A DNA stretch of 34,488 nucleotides from an uncultured Flavobacteriales bacterium (GTDB taxonomy: Bacteria > Bacteroidota > Bacteroidia > Flavobacteriales_G > Salibacteraceae), in NCBI GenBank assembly GCA_913062955.1, contig CAJXZP010000044.1, positions 1 to 34,488 on the forward strand, in the 5' to 3' direction. This document shows positions 1-34,200 of the stretch, one piece after another. A program made the translations under genes and the position numbers. Every line of letters starts with the position of its first letter. Within the stretch, counting starts at the first letter, position 1. The notes below the pieces were generated by a model. That model was not told the origin of the DNA, searched no databases, and was given only the letters and a program-made list of their open reading frames with translations.

Positions 1-3000
1 AAATTGGTATCTTTTGTACATCCATTGGCATCCGTAACTGTTACGGAGTAGGTATTCGCACACAGCCCTGTAATACTTGGAGTAATTGCACCTGTTGACC
101 ATATATAAGAATATGGTAAACTACCCCCCGAAGCTGCGGATGTAATTTCGCCATCACAAACCCCATTACAGGTGATTGCATTTATTAATGAAATATGGAC
201 GAATAACACCGTAGGTTCCGTAATGGTGTAGGTAGAAATCACACTACATCCATTGGCATCTGTAGTCACTAAGGAATAGATACCTGCACATAGATTATTG
301 ACCGTAGCTGAAGTGCTTCCGGTATTCCATAAGTAGCTGTATGGACCCGATCCACCCGTGCTAGTAATAGTTAATGTACCATCACAAATTCCATTACAAG
401 AAACGTGGGTAATTACTTCCGTATTTATAATTGGACTTGGATCAACGATCGTATCCGTTCCTATAAACACGCATCCATTTGCATCGGTTACGGTAACAAA
501 ATAGATACCTTCACATAGACCTGTTTCCGTATCGGCATTCCCGCCAGAAGACCATGCGTATGTATATGGCATTGTTCCTCCAAGAGCACCTACTTGTAAC
601 GAAGCATCACAAACGGAAGCACATGTTGGATTTGTAACCGTAATTGGTGCTGAAGTTGGACCTCCAATATTACTAATTGGAAAGTCTAACATACTTGAAC
701 AACCCAGGCCATCTGTGATCGTCACAGAAAATAATCCCGCACATAAATTTGATATGGAAGTTCCAGTAGTGGCATTGGACCAAGCGTAGGAGTACGGACC
801 TCCGTCTCCACCTGCTGTTCCTGTTAATGTAATTAGGCCATCACATAATCCACAATTTGCATCGGTAATCGATGCGTTTGTGGTAATCATTGTAGGCTCC
901 GTTATCATTGAACTCGCCACAAAAGAACACCCTTTTGCATCGGTAACCGTAACAGAATGGCTACCTGCACACAAACCAATGGCACTATTTCCTAAGCCAC
1001 CATTTGACCAGTTATAGGTATATGGACCTGAACCACCCGTAGCAACCGCTGTCATTTCACCATCACAACTTCCATTACAACTAATGGCCTGTGTAGTGGT
1101 TATTGCTAAACTTAAAATAGGTGGATCAACAATCACAATAGTGTCGGTAACAAAACAATTATTCGCATCTGTAGTGGTCACAATAAAAGTACCCGCACAT
1201 ACCGAAGAAATTTGACTCACATTATACGTAATGGTATAAGGACTTGTTCCTCCTGTGGGGGTTAACGTAATTGAGCCATCGCAAGCTCCATTACAACTTG
1301 GATGGATAGCCACTATATTACTTGCAATTTCATTTGGATTATTTAAAGTATCCGTAGCCACTAAAATACATCCATTATCATCCGTTACGGTCACAAAATG
1401 AATACCTGCTGACATACCCACCTCTGTTGCCGAAACACCTCCGGTAGACCATAAATAAGTAAATGGAGAGGTTCCGCCTGTTGGAGTAATAGTCATAGAT
1501 CCATCCGTCCCATTATTACAGCTTGGATCGGTTGTAGCCATGGTGTATGCATTTGGTCCTCCGAAATTACTAATGATCTCCGTAAATTCTGCCGTACAAC
1601 CAGAACCATCAGTGATGGTTACTGTATAGACACCTGGACATAATGCAAAGGTTATATGAGGTAGGGCACCTAACTGAGTACCGCCACTCCAAACATAGGT
1701 ATAGGGACCTCCATCCCCACCTGAAGTACCCTGCATTCCAATTCTACCCGTACACACCCCACAAAATGCATTTGTTGGATTTGCATTAGAGGTAATAGGA
1801 GTCGGTTCCGAAATAGTCATTGATGTGGAGGTAAAACACCCATTGGCATCCAACACTTCCACAGAATAGGTTCCTTCACAAAGGTTAGTGGCAATCAAAC
1901 CATTTGACCCATTGGTCCAAATCACCGTATATGGTCCGGTACCCCCAGTTACAGATGCTGTTAATTCACCATCACACATAGCATTACAGCTAATAGCTGA
2001 AGAGATCGCAACAGTAACTGCCAATAGATTGGGCTCCGTAATATTAATACTTTGAGTCGTGGTACAACCGTTGGCATCAAAAACCGAAACGGTATACGCA
2101 CCCGCACATAAATTAGTTTTCACATCTGTGGTGTCATTGGATGGCCATACCACTATGTATGGAGCTGTTCCTCCTGTTACAGATGAACTTACAATAGCAT
2201 CACAATCCGAATTACAAAAAATCATTCCGGTTTGGAGTAAATTAAGTGATAATGCATCCACGTCATTAATTACAATAGTCACATCCTTAGAACAACCATT
2301 GGCATCCGTAACCGTAACGGTATGCGCACCTGCACATAAATTAGATTCCGTGGTAGAAGACCCACCACTTGGCCAGGCTATGGTTAATGGAGCAGTACCA
2401 CCTGTTAGCGTAATTGTTGCTTCACCATCACAAACCCCAGGGCATGAAACATGCGAAGTAACATTCGAAATAATTACAATTCCTAATGGGTCTTGAATAT
2501 CCACTAAAACGGAATCACTACAACCATTCGCATCGGTCACTGTGACCATATATCCATTGGCACATAAACCCGTTTGAGTTGCTCCCAATAAACCTCCAGG
2601 CCATACATAGGTCATTCCCGGGGTACCTCCAGTTGCAATAATAGTGGCAGCGGCATCACAATTACCTGCACAACTTATTGTTGTGGTGATATTAGCGGAC
2701 AAGTTTATAGCCGCTGGCCCCGTTGCATTGATCAATTCAATCGATGTACAGCCATGATCATCGGTAGTGGTTACGGAATAATTTCCGGCCCCTGTATTAG
2801 AAATCACTGCCGTGATAGCCCCCGTATTCCACAAGTAGGAATAAGGAGCGGTTCCACCTGTAGAACTTGCCGTTAACGTTAAAGTTGAATCTCCAAAACA
2901 AAGTACCGTTCCTGCTTGAGCAATGGTGGTTACAATTGGAGCAGGCTCGTTCAAGGTGATCGAAACTGTACCTGTACATAAATTACCATCTGTAATGGTC

Positions 3001-6000
3001 ACTTCATAGGTACCATCACATAAATTATTTAGGGTTTGTCCATTAATTCCTCCAGGCCATACATAGGTATAAGGTCCAACTCCACCGGTACCATTTGCAG
3101 TAACCTGTCCATCACATACACCCCCACATGAAATAGGGTTATCGATAGCAATAGTTCCTGAAACTGCCGTTGGCTCTGTTAATAGAATGGTATCATTTAC
3201 GAAACATCCATTGGCATCTGTTAGGGTCACTATAAATTGTGTATTGGCACAAATCCCAGAAGCCGTATCATTGGATACGGTCAATCCAGCGGGCCATGAA
3301 ATAGTATATGGTGCTGTACCTCCAGAAGGAGAATAGGTTACCATTCCGTCACAAACCCCATTACAGTTAATTGGATTTACTACGGTTGCATTGGCGATGA
3401 TCGATGTAGGCTGCGTAACCATGAAATTTGCTTCCACCACACAAAAATTAGCATCGGTAAGAGTTACCGAATAAAATCCAGCCCCTAAATTTGAGATCGT
3501 TGTACTCGATGCCCCTGTGGACCACAGGAAGGTATAGTTCAAATTCCCACCAGAACCTGTGGCTAATAAGGATGCGGTAGGCGAACCTCCACAAGAAATA
3601 AATCCGGTTTGCGTAATAATTACATCTAAAATATCTGGTTCTACCACCGTGCTTGCTGCGGTATCTGTACACCCATTCACATCCGTAACCGTTACGATGT
3701 AGGTTCCCGCTCCTACTTGCGTAAGATTTGCACTTGATTGACCGCTACTCCATAAGTAAGAATAATTGGTTGTCCCACCGGTTACCGTAGAATGGATATC
3801 CACCGTTTCATCGGCATTACATAAAATCGTTCCTGTTTGCGCTAAGGTGACATCTAGAACCGCTGGCTCTGTTAGATTTACTGTCACTGTATTACTACAG
3901 CCATTTGCATCCGTAGCGGTAACTACGTATGAGTTTGCACATAAATTCGTTTGATTCCCACCTGTTAAACCTCCAGGCCAAGTAATTACCACTGGGGAAG
4001 TTCCACCGGTAGAAAAAACAGTCACATCCCCATCGCATACGCCATTACAAGAAATAGACGTATTTATTGTGGAAGTCATCGCAATGGAAGCGGGATCAGC
4101 TAAAATTATAGTTTCCAATGACTGACATCCATTCGCATCCGAAATGGTGACGATATGGGAACCGGCACAAAGACCTGTTTCAGAAAGGCTTGTTCCGCCA
4201 CTTGGCCATAAAATAGTATATCCTGGAGTTCCTCCAGAAACCGTTACTGACGCTTCCCCATCACATACACCATTACAACTAATCAAGGAAGTTATGGTTT
4301 GTGTAGTTAACAAAGCAGTAGGTTCATTTACAATTTCAACAGCTGTATTTGTACACCCATTTGCATCGGTAGCAGTAACGGTATACGTAGCCCCACCAAG
4401 ATTTGGATTCGATGAACCAATTACGGCATTGGACCAGACAAATGTAAAAGGTGCTGTTCCCCCAGTAGCCGTAGCTGTTAAATCCACATTCAAATCACCT
4501 GCACATAAATTTGTTCCGGTAGATGTGATAGTTACCACCACTGCAGCTGGCTCCGAAAGAGTTTGACTGGCCGTAGCTGTACATCCATTCCCATCGGTAA
4601 TAGTTACATCGTAAGGACCTGCACATAAGTTATTCAACCTTCTGGAAGTCGCACCTGTTGACCATGAATAGGTATAAGGTAGCGTTCCGCCAGAACCTGT
4701 TGCACGCACAGAGCCATCACACACACCTCCACATGAAATAGGCACAGGAATATTTGTCGTTGCACTTAATACGGTAGGTTCCGTTAAAAGAATAGCTTCT
4801 ATGATTTGACAATTATTTGCATCCGTAATGGTTACATCATAATTGGTGGCTCCACATAAATTAGTGGCCGAATTCCCAACACTTGTCATTCCTGTTTGCC
4901 AGGAAACGGCATATGGCCCAACACCACCAGATGGAGCAACGCTTACAGCACCATCACAAACACCATTACAAGATACCTGAGTATCCAGCGTAAAATTAGA
5001 TATCAAAGCCGTTGGCTCACTTACAACTATACTCTCCACTTGGGTACATAAATTAGCATCTGTAACGGTCAAGGTATACGTACCGGAACCAATACCTGCA
5101 TTTACAGCGGTAGTCACACTATTAGACCATGCGTAGGTATATCCAGGTGTTGCGCCACTCGCATTCCCAGTAATACTTGCCGTTAAATCTCCATTACATT
5201 GAATAAATACGGTTTGTGTAATTCCCACAACCAATGGTGTAGGTTCACTAACCACCACCTGATCTGTTGCCGTACAACCATGATCATCGGTTACGGTTAA
5301 CGTATACGTACCCGCACCCATATTATTAAGACTAGCAGAAGTTTGACCTCCAGACCACAAATAATTATAAGCCACTGTACCTCCATTTACGGTAGAAGTA
5401 ATATTTACGTTATTATCGCCATTACACAATATGGTTCCAACAGCACTAACGCTAACCCCAAGAACTGCTGGCTCCGTAAGAATCACCGTTTCAATAACAA
5501 AACAACCTGCGCCATCTGTAACGGTCACTGCGTAAGAATTAGCACATAAACTTCCTTGAGTTGCCCCCGTTAAACCACCGGGCCAAGCAAATGTAAACGG
5601 CCCTGTTCCACCCGAGGCAGTCATTGTAATTTGACCATCGCAATCCCCATTACAAGAAACAGGAGTATCAATAGCCGATCCAACTAGGATGGCTGCAGGC
5701 TCGGAAATAATAATAGATTCTGTTACTGTACACCCTTTTGCATCTGTTACCGTAACATTATAGGTACCCGAACATAGGCTAGCGTGTGTTGAATTGGCTG
5801 GCAATCCATTATCCCAAGCATAGGTATAAGGCCCTTGACCACCTGAGGTAGCTACAGAAATACTTGCATCACAAATCCCAGGACAAGAAATAGCACTAGT
5901 TAAAGATATAATAGGATCAATAATAGCGGGTTGATCAACGGTAATCGTGGTATCTGCGGTACATCCATCACCATCAGAAGTTACCGTTACGGTATATGTA

Positions 6001-8435
6001 TTGGCGGTTAAACTCGTGACACTACCTGTGGTTTGTCCAGCAGCTGGGGAAGGAGTCCATGCGTAGGTAAATGTAGATTCACAATTCCCAAATCTTACAT
6101 TAGGCCTATTGGCAGAAGTTGCTGTTAAATTAGAACTGGTACAAACCCCCGTATTATTATCATGGTAATATCTAACCGATTGATTAGCGGTCGTGCTATA
6201 TTTAGATAAAGCATTACCAGACCCCGTGGCGTTTGGATTATTAAAACATACCTCTACCACAATATTGGTAACACCATCCCAAAAATATTTCACATCAAAA
6301 TTATGGGTATTCCAACCGACACTTACTTGATGCGTTACCGGAAACAACACTTCGGTCAAACCGGTTTCCCAACCACCCGTTAAATCACTCACCGAGGTAC
6401 ACCCCATTTTGATCGTGAAATTTGCATAATTAATGGTCGTTCCAATACCCGTAACCTCCATGGCTAAAGACTTAATTGTCCCAGGTAACACCCCAGCAGC
6501 CGTTAGTTCAGCAGCCGTGTATAAAATTTGATGCTTGGCTCCATTAGAAGAATTACCATAAGGGGCTGGGTACGTAGAAAAGGTATTCGTGGAAGTACCC
6601 GTTCCTAAAGTAATATAATTTGGACTGGTACACGCATCGGTACTTACACCACAAGTAGGGGTTCCATGGGTATAAATAGCACCATCAGCCCCTCCAAAAC
6701 AGGTAACAGAATCCACACTATCAATAACAATAGTAGGGGGAGTTGGCTCTTGCACTATTGCCGAAATCAATTGAGTACATCCATTACCATCTGTAACAGT
6801 AAGTGTATAAGAATCAGCACAAACACCCAGTAAATTCTTTGTTGTTTGCCCACTACTCCATAAAAACGAATGAGGCGTAGTACCACCATAGGTTAATACC
6901 CCCACGGCTCCGACACAAGTGGCGGAACAGTCATCATCCGTAACACCTTGAACAAAACCACCAAACACAGGAGCTGTAGCAATATTATAACCAATAATCA
7001 CGTAATTTGTAGATGGATCTGGATCACCCAAATCAGTTAGGATCAAAATTCCACCGCCATCGCACAACCCGGTAACAGCGGATAAACCTTGACAACATCC
7101 CGATCCAATAGGATCCCAATAATAACTATAGGGACCTACACCTCCAGAAGCAATAGCAGTTGCAGTTCCATCACACATCCCGAAACAAGAAATACCAGTA
7201 GTGGTAATTACTCCAGTTAAATTTGACGGAGGAGGAATAATTATCGTTACCGCAACCGAGTTCCCTCCAGATATTGGACACGCATTATCTCTCGCTTGAA
7301 AAGTAATAATATTATTGGTATTCATTCCAGCAGGCACGGTCCAACAAACGGTAGCGGTAGTAGGATTAATCCCCGTAATAGTAGTAATTGAACCTGGTAA
7401 AGCATTACCTGCATTGGTAGTCACCACCACAGTATCTAATACATCCACATCTGTAAAAATCACATCAAAACAAAATTGATCACCCACCTGAGCAGTAATT
7501 TCTAATGGGTTTGAATGAACCACAGTACCCACGGTATTCACAATATTTTGAACCGAAGTAGGTGCAGTTGGGATGGTATTTGTAAATCCTGAAATAGTAC
7601 AATCCAGGACTACAAATTGAATATCACGTAAAACGGTCCCGATAATTTGACCCGCCCCATTATATTCAGTTACTTCGACAACGACAACAAAACTTCCTGT
7701 TAATGTTGGTGTGAAATTTAACTCACCCGATTGACTATTAATGGTAATTCCAGGAAATGGTAATAAAGCTGAATAACCAGGTATGTATGGCACATTTACT
7801 CCTCCAGAATTCTTTCTTGCAGATACCAAACTATAACTCAAACTATCTCCATCATTTTCAACTACTCCGTAATTATAATTTACCGCCTGATTGTTACACA
7901 CATATGGAATTGGGTCAGCAGTATACTCCGGAGAGCTATTATTAGGATATAAAATAGAATTCAATGTAGCCTCGAAATAATAACCTTGACTTAAAGGATT
8001 GCTCAGGTTAATAATTGCATTATTTCTACAACAACTATTATAGGAAAAAGTATACTCAGTACAATGAGTAGTCAGCTGAATTAATCCCTGATACACGTAC
8101 TTTTCCATCCCCGGCAAAGAACCTCCACTACAAGAACTTTGACTAATCATCGCATCGCAAATTTGCGAAACCTCCTCCCCAAAAGGAGCTTGAAGCACCA
8201 TATTTATAGGTGCTGGCTGAATAGACAAACAAGAACCTACCACATTCACCTGAGGACTAGGTGGCGCCCCAAGGGTGGCTTCACAATCTCGATACAAAGT
8301 CAATGTAACCAAAAAGGAATCATTGCCTAAATGCTCATAGGTGATTTCACCACCAGAAATATGAGTGGCCAAAACATTAGAAGGGAGAAGCCAAGTTCCT
8401 AAAGCGACAAGTAAAATGAGTATAATTCTTTTCAT
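1..8435 (-). CDS. Giant secreted SprB-repeat surface protein, N-terminal 2,811 codons (runs off left edge)
   Basis: The frame is open from the ATG at 8435-8433 down to base 1, so the C-terminus is outside the window. Residues 1-23 form a signal peptide (MKRIILILLVALG, cleavage near NVLA/THIS). Residues 24 to about 270 begin with a THxxGGExxY motif and a conserved xLYRDC, a module I recognise from other Bacteroidota repeat proteins. An Ig/cadherin-like module follows (to about residue 400). Then come 29 SprB-like repeats of about 76 residues: CNG-x-CDG, GGxxPYxYxW, LCAGxYxVTVTDANGC, linker TEP. Repeat 3 is split by a ~200-residue insert. SprB of Flavobacterium is a mobile gliding adhesin exported by the type IX secretion system. 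A T9SS C-terminal sorting domain is expected beyond the left edge but is not seen. No good -7 box lies in 8436-8585; the closest is CAAAGACA at 8496-8503. Adhesin or scaffold role is inference. Confidence 0.92.
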   Translation of the reverse strand, partial: MKRIILILLVALGTWLLPSNVLATHISGGEITYEHLGNDSFLVTLTLYRDCEATLGAPPSPQVNVVGSCLSIQPAPINMVLQAPFGEEVSQICDAMISQSSCSGGSLPGMEKYVYQGLIQLTTHCTEYTFSYNSCCRNNAIINLSNPLSQGYYFEATLNSILYPNNSSPEYTADPIPYVCNNQAVNYNYGVVENDGDSLSYSLVSARKNSGGVNVPYIPGYSALLPFPGITINSQSGELNFTPTLTGSFVVVVEVTEYNGAGQIIGTVLRDIQFVVLDCTISGFTNTIPTAPTSVQNIVNTVGTVVHSNPLEITAQVGDQFCFDVIFTDVDVLDTVVVTTNAGNALPGSITTITGINPTTATVCWTVPAGMNTNNIITFQARDNACPISGGNSVAVTIIIPPPSNLTGVITTTGISCFGMCDGTATAIASGGVGPYSYYWDPIGSGCCQGLSAVTGLCDGGGILILTDLGDPDPSTNYVIIGYNIATAPVFGGFVQGVTDDDCSATCVGAVGVLTYGGTTPHSFLWSSGQTTKNLLGVCADSYTLTVTDGNGCTQLISAIVQEPTPPTIVIDSVDSVTCFGGADGAIYTHGTPTCGVSTDACTSPNYITLGTGTSTNTFSTYPAPYGNSSNGAKHQILYTAAELTAAGVLPGTIKSLAMEVTGIGTTINYANFTIKMGCTSVSDLTGGWETGLTEVLFPVTHQVSVGWNTHNFDVKYFWDGVTNIVVEVCFNNPNATGSGNALSKYSTTANQSVRYYHDNNTGVCTSSNLTATSANRPNVRFGNCESTFTYAWTPSPAAGQTTGSVTSLTANTYTVTVTSDGDGCTADTTITVDQPAIIDPIISLTSAISCPGICDASISVATSGGQGPYTYAWDNGLPANSTHASLCSGTYNVTVTDAKGCTVTESIIISEPAAILVGSAIDTPVSCNGDCDGQITMTASGGTGPFTFAWPGGLTGATQGSLCANSYAVTVTDGAGCFVIETVILTEPAVLGVSVSAVGTILCNGDNNVNITSTVNGGTVAYNYLWSGGQTSASLNNMGAGTYTLTVTDDHGCTATDQVVVSEPTPLVVGITQTVFIQCNGDLTASITGNASGATPGYTYAWSNSVTTAVNAGIGSGTYTLTVTDANLCTQVESIVVSEPTALISNFTLDTQVSCNGVCDGAVSVAPSGGVGPYAVSWQTGMTSVGNSATNLCGATNYDVTITDANNCQIIEAILLTEPTVLSATTNIPVPISCGGVCDGSVRATGSGGTLPYTYSWSTGATSRRLNNLCAGPYDVTITDGNGCTATASQTLSEPAAVVVTITSTGTNLCAGDLNVDLTATATGGTAPFTFVWSNAVIGSSNPNLGGATYTVTATDANGCTNTAVEIVNEPTALLTTQTITSLISCNGVCDGEASVTVSGGTPGYTILWPSGGTSLSETGLCAGSHIVTISDANGCQSLETIILADPASIAMTSTINTSISCNGVCDGDVTVFSTGGTSPVVITWPGGLTGGNQTNLCANSYVVTATDANGCSNTVTVNLTEPAVLDVTLAQTGTILCNADETVDIHSTVTGGTTNYSYLWSSGQSSANLTQVGAGTYIVTVTDVNGCTDTAASTVVEPDILDVIITQTGFISCGGSPTASLLATGSGGNLNYTFLWSTGASSTTISNLGAGFYSVTLTDANFCVVEANFMVTQPTSIIANATVVNPINCNGVCDGMVTYSPSGGTAPYTISWPAGLTVSNDTASGICANTQFIVTLTDANGCFVNDTILLTEPTAVSGTIAIDNPISCGGVCDGQVTANGTGGVGPYTYVWPGGINGQTLNNLCDGTYEVTITDGNLCTGTVSITLNEPAPIVTTIAQAGTVLCFGDSTLTLTASSTGGTAPYSYLWNTGAITAVISNTGAGNYSVTTTDDHGCTSIELINATGPAAINLSANITTTISCAGNCDAAATIIATGGTPGMTYVWPGGLLGATQTGLCANGYMVTVTDANGCSDSVLVDIQDPLGIVIISNVTSHVSCPGVCDGEATITLTGGTAPLTIAWPSGGSSTTESNLCAGAHTVTVTDANGCSKDVTIVINDVDALSLNLLQTGMIFCNSDCDAIVSSSVTGGTAPYIVVWPSNDTTDVKTNLCAGAYTVSVFDANGCTTTQSINITEPNLLAVTVAISSAISCNAMCDGELTASVTGGTGPYTVIWTNGSNGLIATNLCEGTYSVEVLDANGCFTSTSMTISEPTPITSNANPTNAFCGVCTGRIGMQGTSGGDGGPYTYVWSGGTQLGALPHITFALCPGVYTVTITDGSGCTAEFTEIISNFGGPNAYTMATTDPSCNNGTDGSMTITPTGGTSPFTYLWSTGGVSATEVGMSAGIHFVTVTDDNGCILVATDTLNNPNEIASNIVAIHPSCNGACDGSITLTPTGGTSPYTITYNVSQISSVCAGTFIVTTTDANNCFVTDTIVIVDPPILSLAITTTQAISCNGSCDGEMTAVATGGSGPYTYNWSNGGLGNSAIGLCAGSHSVTVTDAKGCSFVASSMITEPTMITTNASITDANCGLCDGLITLTGTAGGDGGPYSYAWSNATTGTSISNLCAGLFSVTITDGLGCSSMLDFPISNIGGPTSAPITVTNPTCASVCDASLQVGALGGTMPYTYAWSSGGNADTETGLCEGIYFVTVTDANGCVFIGTDTIVDPSPIINTEVITHVSCNGICDGTLTITSTGGSGPYSYLWNTGSTSATVNNLCAGIYSLVTTDANGCSVISTYTITEPTVLFVHISLINAITCNGVCDGEITSAASGGSLPYSYIWSTGAITPSITGLCANTYSVTVTDANGCTKDTN
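246..2063 (-). repeat. Two tandem copies of a four-repeat superunit (909 bases each)
   Basis: Repeats 21-24 (2063 down to 1155) and 25-28 (1154 down to 246) are each 909 bases long and match in order. The second unit of each starts with a compact C-G-x-C motif, contains GGDGGPY and ends in an ISNxGGP linker instead of the usual TEP. The third unit of each ends in a TDT-containing linker (DTLNNP / DTIVDP). Internal spacings differ slightly, so the copies have diverged by small in-frame indels. Confidence 0.7.
2748..5960 (-). repeat. Two tandem copies of a seven-repeat superunit (1,605-base offset)
   Basis: Counting from the N-terminus, repeats 4-10 and 11-17 match one to one in order. All seven anchor pairs differ by exactly 1,605 bases (5730/4125, 5502/3897, 5274/3669, 5046/3441, 4809/3204, 4581/2976, 4353/2748). 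Both copies have the class order four-, four-, two-, two-, four-, four-, two-cysteine. Both carry a 79-residue unit at the fifth place. Paired units share private motifs, for example WPGGLTG with LCANSY in units 5 and 12, ISCGGVCDG with LNNLC in units 9 and 16, and GTILCN in units 6 and 13. Units 18-20 look like a degraded start of a third copy. Confidence 0.82.
6075..6665 (-). other. ~197-residue beta-rich domain inserted in SprB repeat 3
   Basis: This segment of the left giant protein covers about residues 590-787. Repeat 3 starts normally (CFGGADGAIY at about 6701-6670), is interrupted, and resumes with FTYAWTPSP at 6072 and a normal VTVTSDGDGC end. The insert contains motifs such as ITLGTGTST, YPAPYGN, AKHQILY, NFTIKMG and VVEVCFNN. 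It resembles a beta-sandwich module that I recall from other Bacteroidota secreted proteins, often next to fibronectin type III or sorting domains. No named family can be assigned with certainty. Confidence 0.6.
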
Positions 8436-22971: not shown

Positions 22972-24075
22972 TTAAATTTCCCCTATTAATTGCCCAAGGA
23001 CTTGGGTATTTTTTAACACGTCCAATTTCGAGTTCCTCGTTAATTTTTCCAGCGAAACTAAAGCCTCCGCCACCTTTAAGTTTTTCTGACTCCGTACTAC
23101 AAAAACAGGGTGCTGTTTCAAATACATTCCCAAATATTCTTGCTCCGTTTGGCCTGGAGTGGGTACGATTATAGCTGTTTTTCGCAAGGTTACCAAATCC
23201 ATTAGTGTAGAGTACCCCGACCGACAAATAATTCCATGACTGTGTTGCATCAACCATTTCAATTGGGCTGAATTGGCAAAACCCATGGAATAGATATTTC
23301 CATTTTTAACAGTGACTTGGTTTTCCAGCTTCCCGCCTACCATAACCACATCCCGATTCAAAGAAGAGAACTGCTTCACTAAATCTCTTTCAAAATATGA
23401 ACGCATTGGCTCTGGACCAGAAAGGACCGCCAATACAAAACCCGCTTGAAATGGGAAATTCTTCGGTTTCTGTTCGCTCAAGCTAGCCCCCATTCTACTC
23501 AGGATACCGGTATATTTAGGAGTAATTCCCTTTACCTCTGAATGGCCTAATTTACCGGACAGATTAATTAGTCCCCCATTATCGGGTACCCAAACATCGT
23601 CAAAATTAGACAACATTTGCCTCACTCTAGAACAAACAAAAGCCTCAAAAAAAGGAACAATTACCCGAACCTGATGGGTCAGAATAATCGATTTTATTTT
23701 CCGGGAATACATCCCATATCGGTTATCGGAAATTACCACATCCAGCTGCAACTCCGGTATCCAGTTGGCCAGTACCTTATTTTCTTTTTTTATCGCTTTC
23801 AGGATTTTGGGAACCAGCCTAATCATATGCCACAGGAACATAAAACCAGCTTTGGGATAAGTAATTTGATAACTCGGTAAATCTCGAACGGATAAATCGG
23901 GATATTGCGATTCCAAAAACTTTTTTGCGTCCCCATCGGAGGCTAAAAAAACATGGTGACCCTCTGCTAAAAGAGCATCAATAATGGGTACACATCGGGA
24001 GGCATGTCCAATCCCCCAGTTTAAGGGTGCTACCAATACGTTTTTCTTCAAATCCAGTTTTTCTGCTTTGTCCAA
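22972..24075 (-). CDS. MurG-like (GT28/GT1 fold) glycosyltransferase, TTG start
   Basis: The 367-residue product starts with VLVAPLNWGIGHASRCVPII, the glycine-rich loop of GT-B glycosyltransferases related to MurG. The C-terminal half contains ICRSGYSTLMDLV and PTPGQTEQEYL, the GT28-like donor site. There is no transmembrane segment, so it is probably cytosolic or peripheral. The first codon is TTG at 24075-24073; a stop lies seven codons upstream with no in-frame ATG between, and the next in-frame ATG is deep inside the fold. The acceptor and sugar are unknown. It diverges from trmB and is followed by the mltD unit 133 bases on. Confidence 0.82.
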   Translation of the reverse strand: MDKAEKLDLKKNVLVAPLNWGIGHASRCVPIIDALLAEGHHVFLASDGDAKKFLESQYPDLSVRDLPSYQITYPKAGFMFLWHMIRLVPKILKAIKKENKVLANWIPELQLDVVISDNRYGMYSRKIKSIILTHQVRVIVPFFEAFVCSRVRQMLSNFDDVWVPDNGGLINLSGKLGHSEVKGITPKYTGILSRMGASLSEQKPKNFPFQAGFVLAVLSGPEPMRSYFERDLVKQFSSLNRDVVMVGGKLENQVTVKNGNIYSMGFANSAQLKWLMQHSHGIICRSGYSTLMDLVTLRKTAIIVPTPGQTEQEYLGMYLKQHPVFVVRSQKNLKVAEALVSLEKLTRNSKLDVLKNTQVLGQLIGEI

Positions 24076-24118
24076 AAATACTTCATCCCAGGGCTATCTC
24101 CCTTCTGCTCACCTCGCT

Positions 24119-24126
24119 TATTTTTG
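24119..24126 (+). promoter_or_regulatory. Putative -7 box of trmB
   Basis: TATTTTTG is a perfect TAnnTTTG match ending 17 bases before the preferred trmB ATG. No -33 TTG is seen at the expected place. Confidence 0.4.
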
Positions 24127-24143
24127 CACAAAATTTTTTAAGG

Positions 24144-24854
24144 ATGTCGAATAAGAATAAGCTGAACAGATTTGCCGATTGTGCCAAATTTGAAAACGTG
24201 ATGGAACCTTCATTGAAAGATGTTATTGATGACCAAAATGGCGGTGCTATCCTCCCCCATCCCATCCAAGGGAATTGGCGGAGTGAATTTTATTCCAATG
24301 ACAATCCTGTGGTTTTAGAATTGGCCTGTGGAGGGGGTGAATATACAGTAGCCTTGGCCCGACAAAATGCCGAGAAAAATTATTTGGGAGTGGATATTAA
24401 AGGAGCTCGTTTATGGAAAGGAGCCAAAATCGCTTTGGATGAAGGTTTAGGTAATGCAGGTTTTTTACGTACTCGAATTGATTTTATCACCTCGTTCTTT
24501 AAGAAGGATGAAGTAGACGAAATTTGGATTACGTTTCCGGACCCTCAACCCCAAAAAAACCGGGCTCGAAAACGATTAACCGCTCCTATGTTTATTGAAC
24601 GTTACCGGGAATTTTTAAAACCTGGTGCGGTTATTCATCTGAAACATGACAACGATTTTTTCTTTAATTATACTTTGGAGCAAATTGATGAGTGTGGATA
24701 TACTTTAGAGTTTTGCTCGCATGATATTTATGCTGAATTAGATAAAGTGGAAGATGAAAAACTAAGAGAGGTATTACAAACCAAAACCTATTATGAGGAC
24801 AAGTTCTCCGAAATTGGGCATGTAATTAAATACCTCCGTTTTAGAATTTCGTAA
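24144..24854 (+). CDS. trmB: tRNA (guanine-N7-)-methyltransferase
   Basis: TrmB uses S-adenosylmethionine to make m7G46 in the tRNA variable loop. The ATG at 24144 is preferred over an upstream in-frame ATG at 24027, because the latter lies in the divergent neighbour and adds 39 residues absent from TrmB. The 236-residue product has the SAM-binding motif LELACGGGEYT, then YLGVDIKGARLWKGA, and the family signature FPDPQPQKNRARKRL. The usual FPDPW has Gln in place of Trp here, as I recall from other Bacteroidota TrmB. The C-terminus ends in TKYE-like YYEDKFSEIGH. The alkyltransferase-like gene begins two bases after its stop, so the two are cotranscribed. Confidence 0.95.
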   Translation: MSNKNKLNRFADCAKFENVMEPSLKDVIDDQNGGAILPHPIQGNWRSEFYSNDNPVVLELACGGGEYTVALARQNAEKNYLGVDIKGARLWKGAKIALDEGLGNAGFLRTRIDFITSFFKKDEVDEIWITFPDPQPQKNRARKRLTAPMFIERYREFLKPGAVIHLKHDNDFFFNYTLEQIDECGYTLEFCSHDIYAELDKVEDEKLREVLQTKTYYEDKFSEIGHVIKYLRFRIS

Positions 24855-24856
24855 GG

Positions 24857-25222
24857 ATGACTACCATTAAATTATCTGAAAAAAACAAAGATTTTTTTGA
24901 TAGAGTATATCAGGTGGCACGGCTCATCCCGTACGGTAGAGCCACCAGTTACGGAGCAATAGGCAAATACCTGGGCTCTGCCCGTTCGGCTCGAATGGTG
25001 GGTTGGGCCATGAACGGATGTACCCAAACGGATAGCGATATCCCTGCACATCGAGTGGTGAATCGATTAGGGGTGCTTTCTGGCAAAAACCATTTTACGA
25101 CTCCTACGTTAATGCAAGAAAAACTGGAAGCCGAAGGAATTCAAGTTAAGGACGACCAAATTGTTGGTTTTAAGAATGTTTTCTGGGACCCAGAGATAGC
25201 GTTAGCTATTGATAACTGTTAA
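24857..25222 (+). CDS. Alkyltransferase-like protein (ATL), MGMT fold without acceptor cysteine
   Basis: The 121-residue product is the DNA-binding domain of the O6-alkylguanine-DNA alkyltransferase (MGMT) family. PYGRATSYGAIG (25-36) and the arginine-finger helix SARMVGWAM (44-52) are present. The catalytic PCHRV motif reads IPAHRVV, with Ala64 in place of the acceptor Cys. ATL proteins with Trp or Ala here bind O6-alkylguanine without removing the alkyl group and hand the lesion to nucleotide excision repair. UvrC is in the same window but 11 kb away and not in the same operon. It follows trmB by two bases. Cys55 and Cys121 are not in the active-site position. Confidence 0.92.
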   Translation: MTTIKLSEKNKDFFDRVYQVARLIPYGRATSYGAIGKYLGSARSARMVGWAMNGCTQTDSDIPAHRVVNRLGVLSGKNHFTTPTLMQEKLEAEGIQVKDDQIVGFKNVFWDPEIALAIDNC

Positions 25223-25265
25223 AATCACCCGTTCAATAATTAAACCCCTATTCAAAAGTTAATCC

Positions 25266-25273
25266 TATTTTTG
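25266..25273 (+). promoter_or_regulatory. Putative -7 box of the two-component operon
   Basis: TATTTTTG is a perfect TAnnTTTG match ending 21 bases before the kinase ATG at 25295, predicting a leader of about 15 bases. No TTG is present at the ideal -33 position. Confidence 0.45.
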
Positions 25274-25294
25274 AAATAGAATTACTGCTAAACT

Positions 25295-27421
25295 ATGCTT
25301 CATAATTTCAAGGACTGTTACTCGCACTTTACCGTCATTGTTCTTCTTGTTCTTTTTGCAATTGGAAACACCACCCCCTGCATTGGCCAAGTTGATTCCT
25401 TGCTTCAAGAATTAAACACGACCTCTGATGACTCCTTAAAATATGATGTCCTGGTCAAGCTAGCCATCGAACTAGAGCCATCTAACTCAGACTCCAGCTT
25501 CAAGTACTACCATGCAGCGGCCAATCTCACCCAAGGTAATAATTGGCATAAAAAAACAGGGAATGTATATTACAATATGGGAATGTTTACCCATTACACT
25601 CTTTGGTCGGATACATGTATTCAATTGGTTCGAAAGGCAGCGTATTGGTACCGTAAAGCCAATTACCCTTTGGGAGTATTAAATTGTCAGTTTACGGAAG
25701 GTACGTATTGGATGAATTTTGAAATATTAGATAGTGCCATTACCAATCTTGAGAAGGCCGCTACCTATGGACAAGAAATAAATGACACCCTTTATTTACA
25801 CAAAATATACAACAACTTAGGACTCGCATATCAATATACCGGGCAATTGGAAAAGGCAATTGCATATATGCTTCTTTCTATTCAGGAAAAGAAAAAATAC
25901 ACGCCAAACAGGCTGGCTTCTGCATTCATAAACCTTGGCGTTAATTATTTAAATACATCCAATAGTACGGAGGCCATTTATTATTTCAAAAAAGGATATG
26001 AGGAAAGTGTGAAATTAGAATATCAATTAGGTATGGGACTTTCACTTAAAAATACGGGAGATGCATTTGCACAAGACCACCTATTGGATAGCACTTTTTA
26101 TTATTACAAAAAGGCAAAATCCGTATTTGTTCAAATGAATGACTCCAACCATATTTCACGGTATTATATGTCGACAAGTGAAGTTTTGGCCAATCAAGGA
26201 CTTACTCAACAAGCAGCAGATAGTTTAGAAATGGCTATTGCTTATTTTCCTTCCAACGGGAGTCCTCGATTAAAAATTCACACCTTAATTACGCAATGTA
26301 ATTTCAAGTTATCTGATTCCCCGAATTCATTGGAGCTTACGAAAATTGAAGAAATGGCATTAGAAGCCTATCAGTTATCTCAGAAAACGGGTTTAATTCA
26401 GGAGACGGCCAGAGCATCAAAGTTGCTATTTAGCGTGTATTCGATGACCCGTAAAAATGGCCTAGCCGTGCAATATGGAGAAACCTATATGCGTATTAAT
26501 GACTCCCTTTTCAATGAGCAACAGTCGGAAGCACTGGCTGAGCAAAGAACCAAATTTGAGACCGAAAAAAAAGAAATTGAAATTGATTTTTTAAATAAAG
26601 AGAATCAGTTAAAATCGATTGAACTGGCGCAAAATGCCCAACTTCAAGAAAAGCAACAAACCATTATCTACTTACTCGTTTTTGGCGTTATTATTACCCT
26701 CGTGTTTATCGGAATAGTTTTCAAACTCTATTCCAAACAACAACGCACGAACCATGTTTTAATTCAAAAAAACACACTCATTCAAAAGCAAAATTCGGAA
26801 AAAGAGATTCTTTTAAAAGAAATTCATCATCGCGTAAAGAACAACCTCCAAATTATTTGGAGCTTGCTTGATTTGCAATCCCATAGCATAGATGATCCAG
26901 GCGTTAAATTGGCTATTACGGATGGTAAGAACCGAATTAATTCCATGTCTATGATCCACCAAATGCTCTATCAAAATGACGATGCTGGGAATATTCAATT
27001 CAAAGATTATTTACACCAACTTATTCTTCAAATAAAAAGCACGTTTACAAACGCTTCCGATACCGAAATAATTTTAAATGTGCCCGAAGGATTACAGTTT
27101 GACATGGATACCTCTATCCCTCTTGGGTTGATTATCAATGAAATAATCACGAATGCGTTTAAATATGCATTTACCAATCACCCTTCCAAAATTATTCGAG
27201 TAGAAGTAATATCTCTTGGATCCAATCAATTCCAGCTTAAAATAAGTGATAATGGCGTTGGGTTTCCAGAAAACTTCGATATTACAAAATCAAAAAGTTT
27301 AGGTTTACGATTGGTAAAGAACCTCAGTAAACAACTCAAAGGAAACCTGGAAATAGAAAGTGAAAACGGAACCACGTTTATCATCCATTTCAAAGGCAAA
27401 ACATTCAAATTAGAAAACTAG
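25295..27421 (+). CDS. TPR sensor histidine kinase (HisKA_2 type)
   Basis: The 708-residue product has an N-terminal signal or anchor helix (about 12-26), then an extracytoplasmic region of tetratricopeptide-like helices to about residue 410, with motifs such as KIYNNLGLAYQYTGQLEKAI. A charged coiled coil and a TM helix (about 456-478) connect to the cytoplasmic kinase. The dimerisation/phosphoacceptor helix reads LLKEIHHRVKNNLQ, with His511 and His512, typical of HisKA_2. The ATPase domain shows INEIITNAFKYAF (N box), SDNGVGFP (G1) and SLGLRLVKNL (G2). The stop codon directly abuts the regulator's ATG, so the pair is translationally coupled. The signal sensed is unknown. Confidence 0.93.
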   Translation: MLHNFKDCYSHFTVIVLLVLFAIGNTTPCIGQVDSLLQELNTTSDDSLKYDVLVKLAIELEPSNSDSSFKYYHAAANLTQGNNWHKKTGNVYYNMGMFTHYTLWSDTCIQLVRKAAYWYRKANYPLGVLNCQFTEGTYWMNFEILDSAITNLEKAATYGQEINDTLYLHKIYNNLGLAYQYTGQLEKAIAYMLLSIQEKKKYTPNRLASAFINLGVNYLNTSNSTEAIYYFKKGYEESVKLEYQLGMGLSLKNTGDAFAQDHLLDSTFYYYKKAKSVFVQMNDSNHISRYYMSTSEVLANQGLTQQAADSLEMAIAYFPSNGSPRLKIHTLITQCNFKLSDSPNSLELTKIEEMALEAYQLSQKTGLIQETARASKLLFSVYSMTRKNGLAVQYGETYMRINDSLFNEQQSEALAEQRTKFETEKKEIEIDFLNKENQLKSIELAQNAQLQEKQQTIIYLLVFGVIITLVFIGIVFKLYSKQQRTNHVLIQKNTLIQKQNSEKEILLKEIHHRVKNNLQIIWSLLDLQSHSIDDPGVKLAITDGKNRINSMSMIHQMLYQNDDAGNIQFKDYLHQLILQIKSTFTNASDTEIILNVPEGLQFDMDTSIPLGLIINEIITNAFKYAFTNHPSKIIRVEVISLGSNQFQLKISDNGVGFPENFDITKSKSLGLRLVKNLSKQLKGNLEIESENGTTFIIHFKGKTFKLEN

Positions 27422-28144
27422 ATGGAAAAAGTAAAAATTCTAATCGTTGAGGATGAAATGGTAATCTCCATGAATTTGGTTTCCATTTTAGAATCCTTGG
27501 ACTATGATGTACTTGAACCTGCGGCCACTTTTGAAGAAGCCTTAGAAGTTTTAGCCACCGATAAACCAGATATTGCGCTTTTAGATATTGAACTAGGAGA
27601 AGTAAAAAACGGAATAGACATTGCCCGGATATTGAATGACAAATATAAAATTCCGTTCATTTTTCTAACCTCAAACGCTGATTCTCATACCTTAAACGAA
27701 GCCAAAGAGACCCACCCTGCATCCTATTTGGTCAAACCATTTAATCAAGACGATTTATTTACATCGATAGAAATAGCCATTCATAATTACCGTAAAATAA
27801 GATCAACGACATCCAACTTTCCAAAAATTATCGAAGACTCATTCTTCGTAAAGAACAAAAACATGTTCTACAAAGTTCGATTTAATGAGATTCTATACCT
27901 AAAAAGTGATCATGTTTACATCGAATTACATACCATCCATCAGAAGAAGCATTTGATTCGGGGTAGTCTTACTTCATTTACAGAACGGCTCCCCAAAAAC
28001 TTTTTTCGTACCCATAGAAGTTATGTCGTTAACCTAGATTTTTTAGAGGCCATCAATTCCATTAGCGTTATCATCAAAGGTGAAAACGTTCCTATTGGCA
28101 AAACATTCAGAACGGCATTAATGAATCAAGTACATATTGAGTAA
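27422..28144 (+). CDS. LytTR-family response regulator
   Basis: The 240-residue product has an N-terminal receiver domain with acidic pocket VEDE (Glu10, Asp11), phosphoacceptor Asp55 in ALLDIEL, Thr83 and Lys105 in LVKPF. Residues ~140-237 are a LytTR DNA-binding domain: FFVKNKNMFYKV, ILYLKSDHVYIELH, FFRTHRSYVVNL and IPIGKTF-like VPIGKTF. LytTR regulators bind direct repeats spaced by about two helical turns. It is certainly cotranscribed with the kinase. The next gene, 150 bases downstream, is the second giant surface protein, an obvious candidate target. CCCAAT boxes in the gap are described separately. Confidence 0.95.
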   Translation: MEKVKILIVEDEMVISMNLVSILESLDYDVLEPAATFEEALEVLATDKPDIALLDIELGEVKNGIDIARILNDKYKIPFIFLTSNADSHTLNEAKETHPASYLVKPFNQDDLFTSIEIAIHNYRKIRSTTSNFPKIIEDSFFVKNKNMFYKVRFNEILYLKSDHVYIELHTIHQKKHLIRGSLTSFTERLPKNFFRTHRSYVVNLDFLEAINSISVIIKGENVPIGKTFRTALMNQVHIE

Positions 28145-28151
28145 CCATTTC

Positions 28152-28191
28152 CCCAATGTAATATGAGAAAAAACCCAATTAACTCCCAATT
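28152..28191 (+). promoter_or_regulatory. Three helically phased CCCAAT direct repeats
   Basis: CCCAAT occurs at 28152-28157, 28174-28179 and 28185-28190, at steps of 22 and 11 bases, i.e. two turns and one turn of the helix. The last two share CCCAATT. A fourth partial TCCCAT follows at 28192-28197. They lie between the regulator stop and the promoter of the giant gene. The sequence does not match the published LytTR consensus known to me, so regulator binding is only a possibility. Confidence 0.35.
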
Positions 28192-28242
28192 TCCCATATT
28201 CTATTACTTCAGAACAAAAAATGCCGTATTCAGAACATTTAT

Positions 28243-28274
28243 TTTGGTAACAACCTAAAGTTCATGTTGTTTTG
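28243..28274 (+). promoter_or_regulatory. Putative promoter of the second giant gene
   Basis: TTG at 28244-28246 and TTGTTTTG at 28267-28274 (seven of eight bases of TAnnTTTG) are 20 bases apart. The expected start site is near 28281, 14 bases before the ATG at 28295, the same leader length as seen for other genes here. Confidence 0.35.
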
Positions 28275-28294
28275 TTCCATCTAAACAAAACACC

Positions 28295-31200
28295 ATGAAA
28301 AAACTATTACTATTCGGACTCCTCCTCTTTTTCGGTTTAATCTCTAACCTTCAAGTAAAGGCCCAAGGCACCACTGTCTCCAACCCAATTGTTATTAATA
28401 GCTTTCCACATACTGAAACTAACTTTAATTCAGAGTTAGGTGCATCGATTGTAGTTCCCGGTTGTGCGACTGCATGTTGTTCCACTTTTGTATTCAAAGT
28501 GACAATACCCGTTAATGGAACCTTACGGGCACAGATGACCAACTTCCAACCCTTAGCAGGCTCCATTATTGCATTTACATCAACGATAACAAACCCTACA
28601 ACAGCCAATGATCTAACACATTACAACGTCCAAGGTAATTTTTGTGGGTTTAGAGACACGCTTAGAATAAGCAACCTCTCCGCAGGAGACGTTTATTACA
28701 TCACCGTTTTCAACAATAACCAACAATCTGGTAATACTAGTAATATTAGCGATATCACTTTCGAATTTATACCAGGTTGTGCTCCATTAACCGTTCCTTC
28801 CATTGTGAATTTTGATACCTTAGAATACAATAGCCAAAGGGATACTACGAATTTTTATGTAACGAACAACAGACCATTGGATGTAATCATTGACACTTCC
28901 AATATGGTTCTATCCGGTACTAACGCTTCCGAATTCACTATCATTCCTCTTTCCAGCACCTCTATTACAGTTGGAGATTCCATATTGATTCAAGCAATTT
29001 TCACCCCTACCAATGGCGGATTGCGAACAGCATCCCTTGAGATTCCATTTGCAGACAATAGTTGTAACACCAGTAACACTATACCGTTTCAAGGCCTAGG
29101 AGCTGAACCCGAAATCAAGATTCTTGGAAATTCTGTATCCATATCTAATAATGATTTAACCCCATCCACTTCCAACTATACTAATATGGGGAGTATAGTT
29201 ACCCATACGGGTTCCCTATCCAAAGAGTATTTTATTACCAATATAGGGACAGATACATTAGAGTTAACGGGTAGTCCTTTGGTTCAACTTACTGGAAACG
29301 CTCAATTTGTAGTTACCACCCCACCAAGTAACCAAGTTCTTCCAGGCGACACCACTTCATTCATTATTACCTTCACCCCCACAACCGATGGATTGGCGAG
29401 CACCGATATTTCCATCATAAATAACGATGCCACCAAGTCCCCATTTACCTTTAGGGTAGAAGCTACAGGAACCGAAAGAAACGGACTCCACTTTGATGGT
29501 TCAAACGATTATGTTACCATAAATAATGTGGCCACATCCATGAATGGAGTTACTACTTGGAGTATTGAAAGCTGGATTAAAGCCGACCCATCTCAAACCG
29601 GTAACGACCATATTATTAGTTCGAATACCACCGGTACTGGAACCCTATTTCTATTTAGAGTGGATGATGGTATTCTTAGCTTTTATGACGGAAGTAACAG
29701 CCATTTAGGAGGGAACATAGACTTACGTGACGATACTTGGCACCATGTGGCCACTACCTATAATAATGGTTTGATCAAAATGTATATTGACGGTGATTTG
29801 GTAAACGAATCCACGGGTGCAACCATATCTTTCGCTTCCAATAACAGATGGAGTTTAGGTCAAGAATACGATGGCAGTTCAAAAAGTGAATTTTTTAAAG
29901 GAGCACTAAACGATGTACGTATTTGGAATACCGTAAAAACTGACCAAGAAATTGCAGACCACAAATACTGTGAGATTTCAAGTCCAGAAACAGTTACCGA
30001 CTTGGTTGCTTATTACACTATGAACCAAGGAGTTTCAAATGGGAGTAACACCACCATTTCGTCATTGATTGATGTTTCCAGTAATGCGTATCATGGAGTG
30101 CTAACTAGTTTTGCTAAAACGGGAACCACTTCCAACTTTGTACCTGCCATTAATGTAGGTGTTAATTGTAATTCGGTAAGTGTAACTATCTGTGATAACA
30201 GCACTTATTCTGTTGGGGGTAATTCATACACTACTTCTGGTGTACATATTGATACACTTACCAGTTCTCAAAATCAAGATAGCATTGTATACTTAGATCT
30301 TAATCTAGCCTATACCAATCAACTGGTGGATACCATTCTTGATTTTTCTACTTGCGAAAACGCTAATACCACTCAATATACTGCTTCTACGGATTATGTA
30401 TCCTACGCTAATTTTAACAAAGCAAATGCGAACTGGATTGAATGTAATAGTCTCGTTCCATCATTGATCAATACCAATCGATCCGTATTTACTTGGATGA
30501 AGAAGGCAACCACTGTTTCAAGTAGTTCACAGTATATAGTATCCATGAATACCTCAGGTACTGGAAACATTTGTTTGTTAGGTGTAGGCACAAACGAAAA
30601 ACTTCTCGTTTATGATGGGTCAAATGCAAGATACGGGACTACAATTATTACCGATGGAAATTGGCATTATGTGGGGTACACATACGATGAAGCAACAAAC
30701 GAAACTAAAATGTACGTAGATGGCGTGTTAGAAAACACCTATACCAATAGCCAATCTATTACCGCTACTACCGACCGTATTTCGTTTGGTCAAGAATTTG
30801 ACGGATCTAGTACGGGAAACTACTTTGATGGAATTTTAACAGAATTATCCATATGGAATGAAGTTTTAACCATTGCTGACATTACCATGATTAAAGATTC
30901 TGTAATTTCTAGCTCACATCCTAAATATGTAAACCTTCAAGGGTACTATCCTATGATCGGAGATTGTGGGGCAGACCTTAAGATGATAAAGGATTTTAGC
31001 GCTAACGGGAATGACGGAAATGCAACATCAAGCAGTATTCAAATTATAAACCAATTAGAACGCTTAACAGGTTTTAATGCTACAAGTCATTATGCTAAAA
31101 ACTGGTTGAAAAATGGCTCTGTAATATCTACAGGGAATAACTTAAGCTTATTGCATCAAGCGAGTAATTCAGGAATGTACGAATTGAAATTAAAAAGAGG

Positions 31201-34200
31201 TTTCTTTGCCATTTCCGATTCATTCAATGTAACGATAACGGCTTTACCGGTTATTACGCAACAACCTTTAAACACTACGACTCCAGTAGGGAGCACTGCA
31301 GTATTTTCAGTAACTGCTAGCGGAGGACCATATAATTATCAATGGAGGCGACTAGGAGAAGGAAATACATTTATTAGTAAAACTACATCCGATGGTATTG
31401 GTGATGATCAAGTCAATAGTGTTTACCAAAATAGTACAGGAATTTATCTAGCTACAAAAAATGGACTCTCTATTTCAACAGATGGTGGAAATACCTATAC
31501 TAATAAAACTACTTCTGACGGCTTAGGACATAATGTATGTAACGATGTATTTGAAGTGAACGGAATAATTTATGTGGCAACTCAAGGTGGCCTTTCCATT
31601 TCCACAAATGGAGGAGCATCATTTTCGAATAAAACAACTACAGATGGATTATTAAGTAATAATTGCAAGAGTATTTCGATTTATAACAACACCATTTATG
31701 TAGCAATTAACGGAGGATTATCCTTTACAACCGATGGCGGGAACACCTTTACGAATAAAAATACTATAAACGGTATCGGGGCTGGTAGTATCCATTCTGT
31801 ATTCGTAAATGCTAATGGGGTTTACTTGACTAGTACCTGGCTAGGGGCTCCTGGAGGACTTTCAGTTTCAACAGATGGAGGAGCTTCATTTACACATACG
31901 TACTCTTCAGGTGGTTCGGGGTTTCCATCTTTCTATGGGGTTGTTGAAAGTAATGGCATCATCTATGTCGCCACGAATTTTGGCTTGGCCACTTCTTCAG
32001 ATGGCGGAACCACATTTACTAACTTTACAATTGCAAATGGGATAGGTGGTTCTATATGTAAAGATGTTATTGTTGATCAAGGAACAATCTATTTAGCTTC
32101 TTCGAATGGGGTTTCTACCTCAACCGATGGCGGAACTACATTTACTAATAAAACGACTGCAGATGGATTAGCCGATAATGAATGTTTGGGCATTTTCCGT
32201 GGAACGAAAGGATTATTTGTAGCAACCAAAGGAGGGGTTTCAAATTTGGAATCAAGTATAGAAATTCCCGGAGAAACTTCCAGTATTTTAACGCTTACCA
32301 ACGTTGTTACAGCTCAAGATTTAAATGAATATTTTGTTAATATAACCTCTCAAGGCACTAGTTGTTCCGTTAGTTCAGATACCGCTATATTATATCTAGG
32401 AGCAGCTATTCTTACCGTTTCAATTACTAACGATGCAAACGTAACCTGTAATGGATCTGCAAACGGTGGAGCTACCGCTTCCGGATTGAACGGGACAACT
32501 CCTTACACTTACGCTTGGAATAATGGAGTAACAACAGCGACAATTTCTGGCTTGAATGCTGGGGCTTATACAGTAACTGTAACAGATGGTTTAGGAGATA
32601 CTAGTTCTACAACAATTTCCATTACTGAACCTAATATTCTTGAGGCAAACCCAATAATTGCTACCAACATCAGCACAGCGGGATCTTCAGATGGGTCTGC
32701 TACAGCATCATCTACCGGAGGAACAACCCCATATACCTATTTATGGAGCAATGGAGGAACTACTACAAACATTTCCAGCCTTTCGGCAGGAACATATACG
32801 GTAACGGTAACCGATGCCGGTGGCTGTGTAGATAATGAATCAGTTACCTTTATTACACCAGTTGCGCCAACACCGGGTGTTATTGTTATCACTGAAATTA
32901 GCTACAATCCACCAGAAGCTGGAACAGATTCAACGGAGTTCATCGAATTACATAATACGAGTTCCTCCCCGATAAGCCTTTTAGGATGCACATTCACAAG
33001 TGGAGTGGTATACACCTTTCCAGATGTTACAATTAATGCAGGGGGATACCTAGTGGTTGCTGTCGATTCAGCAGCCATAAACAATCGATATGGAATAACC
33101 AGCTATCAATGGACTGGTGGTGGATTAAGTAATGGAGGCGAATCCATTACTCTTAAGGATGCTTCCAATAACTTAATTGATTCTCTTAGGTATGACGATG
33201 TTTCACCTTGGCCCACTGATCCTGATGCGGGTGGCTCCACACTTGTTTTATGTGATCCAAGTTCAGACAATACTATTGGCTCCAACTGGAGTGCTTCAAC
33301 ATCTATTGTTTCAGGAATAATTATTAATACTAAGCAAGTATATGGTTCCCCAGGAACTGCTAACACATGTGTCTCAAACTTTATGGCCAATATAAGTGTT
33401 GACGCAAACGTTACCTGTAACGGATTAGCAAATGGTGGTGCAACCGCTTCCATTACTGGGGGTACAACTCCTTATACATACGCTTGGAGTAATTCAGCCA
33501 CCACTGCATCTATAACGGGTGTTGTAGCAGGGACTTATTCTGTGACCGTTACGGATGCACTAGGCGACACCAATTCCACTTTTGCTACCATCACCCAACC
33601 AATCGCCTTAATCGCATCCAGTTCAGTAAGCTCAAACATAGATTGTAATGGATTAAGCAATGGTCAAGTAACTGCCAGTGCAGCAGGCGGCACCAGCCCA
33701 TTTACATACCAATGGAATACGGGTGGTACCGCAGCTTTAGAAACCGGCTTAGGAGCAGGTACATATTCCGTAACGATCACGGATCAAAATGGATGTACAG
33801 ATTCTGCTTCAGTGGTAGTCTCCGAACCAATAACATTAATTGCCTCCAGTAGTGTAACGAGTTCGATATCTTGTAATGGAATAACCAACGGACAGGTAAC
33901 AGCAAGCGCAGCAGGCGGCACAAATCCGTATACTTACCAATGGAATACAGGAGGTTTTGCCGCTTTAGAAACCAATTTAGGTGCAGGTACATATTCGGTA
34001 ACAATAACCGATCAAAATGGCTGTACCGATAGTGCTTCAGTAATAATCACCGAACCGGATGCATTTGTAGTCTCTAGTTCAGTAACCACAAATATTACGT
34101 GTAATGGAATTACCGATGGACAAGTATCCGCCAGTGAAATTGGTGGTACAAGTCCATATACCTACCAATGGAATACGGGTGGAACTGCCGCTTTAGAAAC

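Follow-up and report, generated by a model that had tools for sequence, protein, structure and literature searches.

Known adhesins and the repeats of this locus

Filaments of the SprB type transmit gliding force, and many of the giant proteins on Bacteroidota surfaces contain repeats like theirs. The closest described relative of the proteins considered here is SprB, the gliding adhesin of Flavobacterium johnsoniae (PF13573), which has the same repeat sequence, the same repeat length and the same organization in giant tandem arrays. The open-access papers on SprB that we searched describe no disulfides, no repeat types and no staples between repeats; all of these are proposed here.

Regarding the fold, the best match to our model of three repeats, taken along the full length of the model, is GhpA, the grappling hook protein of Aureispira (PDB 9flw, 9flp), with a Z of 11.3 and an rmsd of 5.3 for 214 residues. 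The similarity in sequence is weak (E 0.003) and gives no useful residue-level alignment with SprB repeats. The trapped RemZ structure (8gl8) gives no structure of a repeat, since only the C-terminal domain of RemZ is well resolved (PMC10994853).

Covalent cross-links in tandem Ig-like domains, such as we propose here, are known from the cross-linked adhesins of Gram-positive bacteria (PMC10619420). In those proteins, isopeptide, ester or disulfide bonds are described as lying within domains, whereas the main pair considered here spans neighbouring domains. The giant adhesin of Mobiluncus, for instance, has 51 Ig-like domains, and a flexible interdomain linker is reported (PMC10619420). In the gliding of F. 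johnsoniae, experiments showed that stable periplasmic disulfides between SprF/PorG and GldK carry load (PMC12635249); those disulfides link the carrier to the track, whereas the ones discussed below would link the adhesin's own repeats.

The two giant proteins

The window, that is, the stretch of 34,488 nucleotides that was analysed, is a complete contig from a draft genome of Bacteroidota; the two giant genes each extend past one of its ends (Table 1). The left protein matches the SprB family of Pfam in 19 stretches (E = 5.4e-147, 477.6 bits for a cut-off of 28), and the right one scores 168.7 bits (same cut-off). The repeats of the left giant are about 76 residues long. We refer to their cysteine sites as C1 (in the motif CNG, position 17), C2 (CDG, 21), C3 (LCAG, 53) and C4 (DANGC, 67).

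Table 1. Positions of the repeat proteins, repeats and repeat blocks in the window
Feature	Positions	Strand	Basis or remark
Left giant SprB-repeat protein P0001, 2811 aa	3..8435	-	open frame; 3' end cut by contig start
29 SprB repeats, aa 408-2811	3..7214	-	profile search and manual segmentation
Unit 1, array start; C1, C2, C3 present, C4 absent (LTDLGDPDPST)	6963..7214	-	
Unit 3, two-cysteine, split by insert	5934..6749	-	profile search and segmentation
Units 4-10, first copy of seven-unit block	4326..5933	-	offset-7 identity
Unit 6, two-cysteine	5247..5474	-	
Unit 7, two-cysteine	5019..5246	-	
Units 9-11, modelled as three Ig-like domains	4098..4781	-	AlphaFold2
Unit 10, two-cysteine	4326..4553	-	
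Units 11-17, second copy of seven-unit block	2721..4325	-	offset-7 identity
Unit 13, two-cysteine, copy of unit 6	3642..3869	-	
Unit 14, two-cysteine, copy of unit 7	3414..3641	-	
Unit 17, two-cysteine, copy of unit 10	2721..2948	-	
Unit 23, two-cysteine	1341..1571	-	
Right giant SprB-repeat protein P0002, 2064 aa	28295..34486	+	3' end cut by contig end
Right repeat 1, first of two-repeat array; C1 present, C4 lost	32405..32626	+	
Right repeat 2, last before lamin-tail domain; C1 lost, C4 present	32627..32854	+	
Right repeat 3, first after lamin-tail domain; C1 present, C4 lost	33362..33595	+	
Right repeats 4-7, all with C1 and C4, none with C2 or C3	33596..34486	+	

A preliminary description of this DNA had counted 29 repeats in the left giant, 21 with four cysteines and eight with two, and our segmentation and cysteine calls agree with it, down to the list of two-cysteine units (3, 6, 7, 10, 13, 14, 17 and 23). 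C2 and C3 occur together in 21 units and are jointly missing from eight; as had been claimed, there are no mixed units. The readings given there for two-cysteine units, GDNNV/NADET/GDST at the C2 place and GAG at the C3 place, do not apply to all eight: the two places read GGADG and LTAN in unit 3, GDLT and IGSG in unit 7, GGSPT and LGAG in unit 14, NNGTDG and MSAG in unit 23. Unit 3 also carries an insert of about 190 residues (about 6078-6659 of the window). The statement that the right giant uses only repeats devoid of the C2-C3 pair holds for all seven of its repeats in the window.

The units of the left giant are not independent. The mean identity between units seven places apart is 0.50, against 0.38 overall (permutation p ~1e-4), and the order of four- and two-cysteine units, 4-4-2-2-4-4-2, is common to units 4-10 and 11-17, which on the sequence evidence are the two copies of an old block duplication. 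A short insertion ahead of strand F is likewise common to units 8 and 15. The probability of a perfect 21/8 split by chance, 1 in 4.3 million, is valid for independent units, which those of the left giant are not. Because of the block duplication, the eight two-cysteine units do not represent eight events, so that the window alone cannot carry a claim about C2 and C3; the strong statistics on this pair come from other genomes.

Fold of the repeat

Units 9-11, submitted to AlphaFold2 together with 103 related triples, are modelled as three Ig-like domains (pLDDT 97.5, pTM 0.81), whose fold matches are Ig, PKD and GhpA. Direct-coupling analysis was run on 2802 two-repeat windows, with an effective number of 2264, and its strand couplings fit an Ig-like sandwich; self pairs such as 40-40' reflect repeats that evolve together, not contacts. 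The model thus predicts that the SprB repeat is a small Ig-like beta-sandwich and that the array is a series of tandem domains. By the couplings between strands A' and G (12-73, 15-75), C1 lies next to where strand G ends, C4 being at the start of that strand, while couplings 18-1' and 18-4' indicate that C1 adjoins the next repeat.

A probable cysteine pair within the repeat

The repeats were collected in two ways. In the first set, a repeat profile was read over 80 stretches (102 ORFs) of the present genome and of others from Bacteroidota. The second set consists of 78 further loci from named GTDB genomes, found with a two-repeat query. In the first set, C2 and C3 are both present in 35 repeats and both absent from 1012, with five repeats having only C2 and four only C3; the corresponding numbers in the second set are 446, 1625, six and five. 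The survey of other genomes recommended in the preliminary description therefore returns the same co-variation, with mismatches in well under 1% of approximately 3,150 repeats, and many homologous repeats with only one of the two cysteines, which had been named there as the case against a bond, were not seen. Several of the mismatches have features of their own: in the first set, none of the five C2-only repeats has C1, and their C2 looks like a displaced C1, three of the four C3-only repeats of that set look like PKD domains, and three C3-only repeats of the second set have an extra cysteine in the C-D region, which could be an alternative partner of C3.

It may be argued that this co-variation merely reflects the inheritance of repeat types by duplication, in the absence of any physical pairing. 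Blocks of repeats do duplicate, as in our window, and neighbours tend to share their type, with an odds ratio of about 90 between C2 of one repeat and C3 of the next. However, the odds ratio within the same repeat is about 24,000-31,000, and when similar repeats (at least 60% identity, 35 ORFs) differ in C2, C3 flips as well in 114 of 117 pairs, and no columns other than 21 and 53 change in nearly all of these close pairs. Rarer cysteine pairs (58/72, 26/48, 7/71, 56/74) are also found on coupled strand positions. We therefore consider inheritance alone to be a highly improbable explanation.

In the direct-coupling analysis, C2-C3 is the first of 2556 pairs within the domain, with a score of 11.1, the next being 5.4. 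Two cysteines can also bind a metal, and C1 stands close to C2 (C-x3-C or, in some cases, C-x2-C), so that C2 and C3 might be considered as part of a metal or redox site rather than as a structural disulfide. However, no co-varying column of histidine, aspartate or further cysteine ranks with C2-C3 in the couplings, and the residues that replace C2 are usually serine, asparagine or alanine, those that replace C3 alanine, threonine or serine; a site of this kind is extremely unlikely. Taken together, the co-variation, the flips in close pairs and the top coupling make the intradomain C2-C3 disulfide proposed in the preliminary description a well-supported prediction.

Four-cysteine repeats are rare. 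Since the two-repeat query enriches the second set in them, their prevalence was taken from a phylum sample that was not chosen for repeat type, where they make up 15 of 950 repeats, in 8 of 91 ORFs. A strict DNA pattern for CNGxCDG, which is too narrow, was found in 3 of 395 genomes. In the genome that holds the window, four-cysteine repeats are almost confined to the left giant.

A proposed cysteine pair between neighbouring repeats

C1 and C4 are almost universal, so that only their losses are informative. The natural reading of a four-cysteine repeat is that both pairs are intradomain, with C1 bound to C4 and C2 to C3. Most repeats indeed hold both C1 and C4, and over all units there is a weak association between the two (odds ratio 3.5, with nine units lacking both). 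On the contrary, when contiguous repeats are compared, a repeat that has lost C1 has never lost its own C4 (0 of 48 losses; C4 is absent from 71 of the repeats that have C1 and present in 2689), while the C4 of the next repeat is lost in 35 of the 48 cases. The couplings agree with this: C1 and C4 of the same domain rank 209 of 2556, whereas C1 and the C4 of the next domain are the first of 5766 pairs between domains. A bond between the two is unlikely on geometrical grounds as well, since strand G has the C1 of a repeat at one end and its C4 at the other, 8-9 residues apart (approximately 25 Å by our estimate). A C1-C4 disulfide within the repeat was rejected on these three counts, and we regard the reading with two intradomain pairs as very unlikely.

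The association of C1 in repeat i with C4 in repeat i+1 is found in both sets. Among the contiguous repeats of the first set, both cysteines are present in 819 pairs and both absent from 27, with five pairs lacking only C4 and nine lacking only C1; in the second set, these numbers are 1922, 8, three and four. Pooled (2752, 35, 8 and 13), they give an odds ratio of 926 and p = 7e-62, a value that treats repeats as independent, which they are not. When losses are permuted within genes, the mean number of paired losses is 9 and the maximum 18 in 2000 trials, to be compared with the 35 observed. Counted by gene, the partner is lost at least once in 18 of the 26 genes that show a loss of C1, and every time in 17. 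In the 48 two-repeat contrasts where C1 flips, C4 of the next repeat flips in 35 and C4 of the same repeat in none. If displaced cysteines are allowed for, 16 of 2808 adjacent pairs are exceptions to the rule. Hence C1(i) co-varies with C4(i+1) but not with the C4 of its own repeat, which is the pattern that we propose as the signature of stapled repeats. In the genome of the window, 144 adjacent pairs have both cysteines, three have neither and none is mixed, and the right giant displays the rule on a small scale: repeats 1 and 3, each the first of its array, lack C4, repeat 2, before the lamin-tail domain, lacks C1, and the other repeats have both.

The ends of arrays behave in the same way: first repeats without C4 mostly have no cysteine upstream (p = 6e-9), and last repeats without C1 mostly have none downstream (p = 1e-9). 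This bears on the possibility that the disulfides are interchain cross-links between filaments lying side by side. An offset of one repeat could result from chains in staggered register, but the array ends lose exactly the cysteine that has no neighbour in the same chain, and couplings 18-1' and 18-4' locate C1 where the following repeat of that chain begins, so that we give cross-links of this type very little credence. From the loss pattern and the couplings, we infer that C1(i) and C4(i+1) form disulfide staples between successive repeats. We found no description of inter-repeat disulfides in such adhesins in the open-access literature searched.

In two loci (L200 and L148), the C4 of the next repeat is missing and the repeat has gained a C2 without a C3, i.e. 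a CxxC motif, as if C1 had been repartnered. In a third locus (L091, ORF +0, after aa 699), a repeat with C1, C2 and C3 but no C4 follows a repeat without C1, which would be the intradomain and the inter-repeat rules seen at once.

Offsets of -2 and +4 repeats are also associated (odds ratios 32 and 120). This comes mostly from genes in which the staple is missing with a period of three, although a residue remains when these genes are left out (odds ratios 10 and 38). L089, L072 and L095 lack every third staple, L109 and L130 partly so, which would leave the repeats stapled in triplets; this periodic omission occurs in some Flavobacterium-like proteins.

Proposed mechanism and mechanical consequences

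We consider it very probable that the filament is tied by two kinds of disulfide, an optional intradomain one (C2-C3) and a nearly universal inter-repeat one (C1(i)-C4(i+1)), so that it is stapled junction by junction. C2 and C3, which precede strands B and F and share one pole of the domain, would bond with each other, thereby locking a single domain. C1, which follows strand A' at the C-terminal pole of repeat i, would bond to C4, in the F-G turn at the N-terminal pole of repeat i+1. That these bonds form and have a mechanical role is inferred from the co-variation, the couplings, the Ig-like model and the losses at the array edges. Under load, the shortest covalent route would bypass most of each domain, and the filament would therefore stay short even if domains unfold.

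The covalent path can be estimated with 0.36 nm per residue and 0.56 nm per disulfide. The computed limit of extension per repeat is 27 nm for the bare chain, about 16 nm with C2-C3 alone, about 5 nm for the stapled chain and about 9.5 nm when every third staple is missing. The C2-C3 bond thus adds little to the extension limit of a stapled array. The preliminary description had suggested that the two repeat types, with and without C2-C3, could differ in stiffness along the filament; this idea is not supported, since C2-C3 lies off the force-bearing covalent path of the stapled array, and stiffness is more likely to be set by the staple, C1(i)-C4(i+1), a pair absent from that description. Unstapled junctions, at array edges and at every third position in some proteins, are probably more flexible, and the obvious reading of the omission at every third junction is that it provides flexible hinges. 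A broader proposal, which we regard as possible and put forward tentatively, is that SprB-repeat adhesins across Bacteroidota are nearly inextensible load lines with a disulfide staple at nearly all junctions, in which staples omitted at fixed intervals encode hinges, that is, a mechanical code that can be read from the sequence.

If the staple exists, the filament would be nearly impossible to stretch. The staple would also account for the ability of a filament longer than 100 nm to pull a cell and not unravel, and a simple sequence rule would tell rigid from hinged segments. It would also imply that disulfides are formed efficiently in bacteria that have no recognisable oxidase, and it bears on whether these adhesins pass the T9SS pore in a folded state.

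Disulfide formation and secretion

VKOR and DsbB were not found in the genome of the window, and the only match to DsbA is below the cut-off; VKOR is also uncommon across the class (2 of 40). The exported repeats of this genome are nonetheless rich in paired cysteines. Since disulfides are formed in the F. johnsoniae periplasm (PMC12635249), we regard the lack of a known oxidase as puzzling, not as refuting the proposed bonds.

The genome has 26 matches to TIGR04131 (T9SS type B sorting domains), which lie outside the left giant as sequenced, and the C-terminal sorting domain of this protein would lie off the contig; the label of gliding adhesin therefore rests on the repeats and on the T9SS components of the genome. 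There are also six genes of the PorP/SprF family, none of them in the window, the adjoining side of the left-giant gene being beyond the contig.

Other cysteines of the repeats

A lone cysteine at position 59 of the repeat, in the middle of strand F, occurs in L153 (32 repeats) and in 28 other loci; no partner was found for it in the 82 repeats that have no other extra cysteine.

Last, terminal repeats that precede an SdrD-B-like domain (in L172, L206, L215, L061 and others) lack C1, and several of them have a different pair of cysteines, one near the start of strand A and one in strand G (CSIEV...CETTC).
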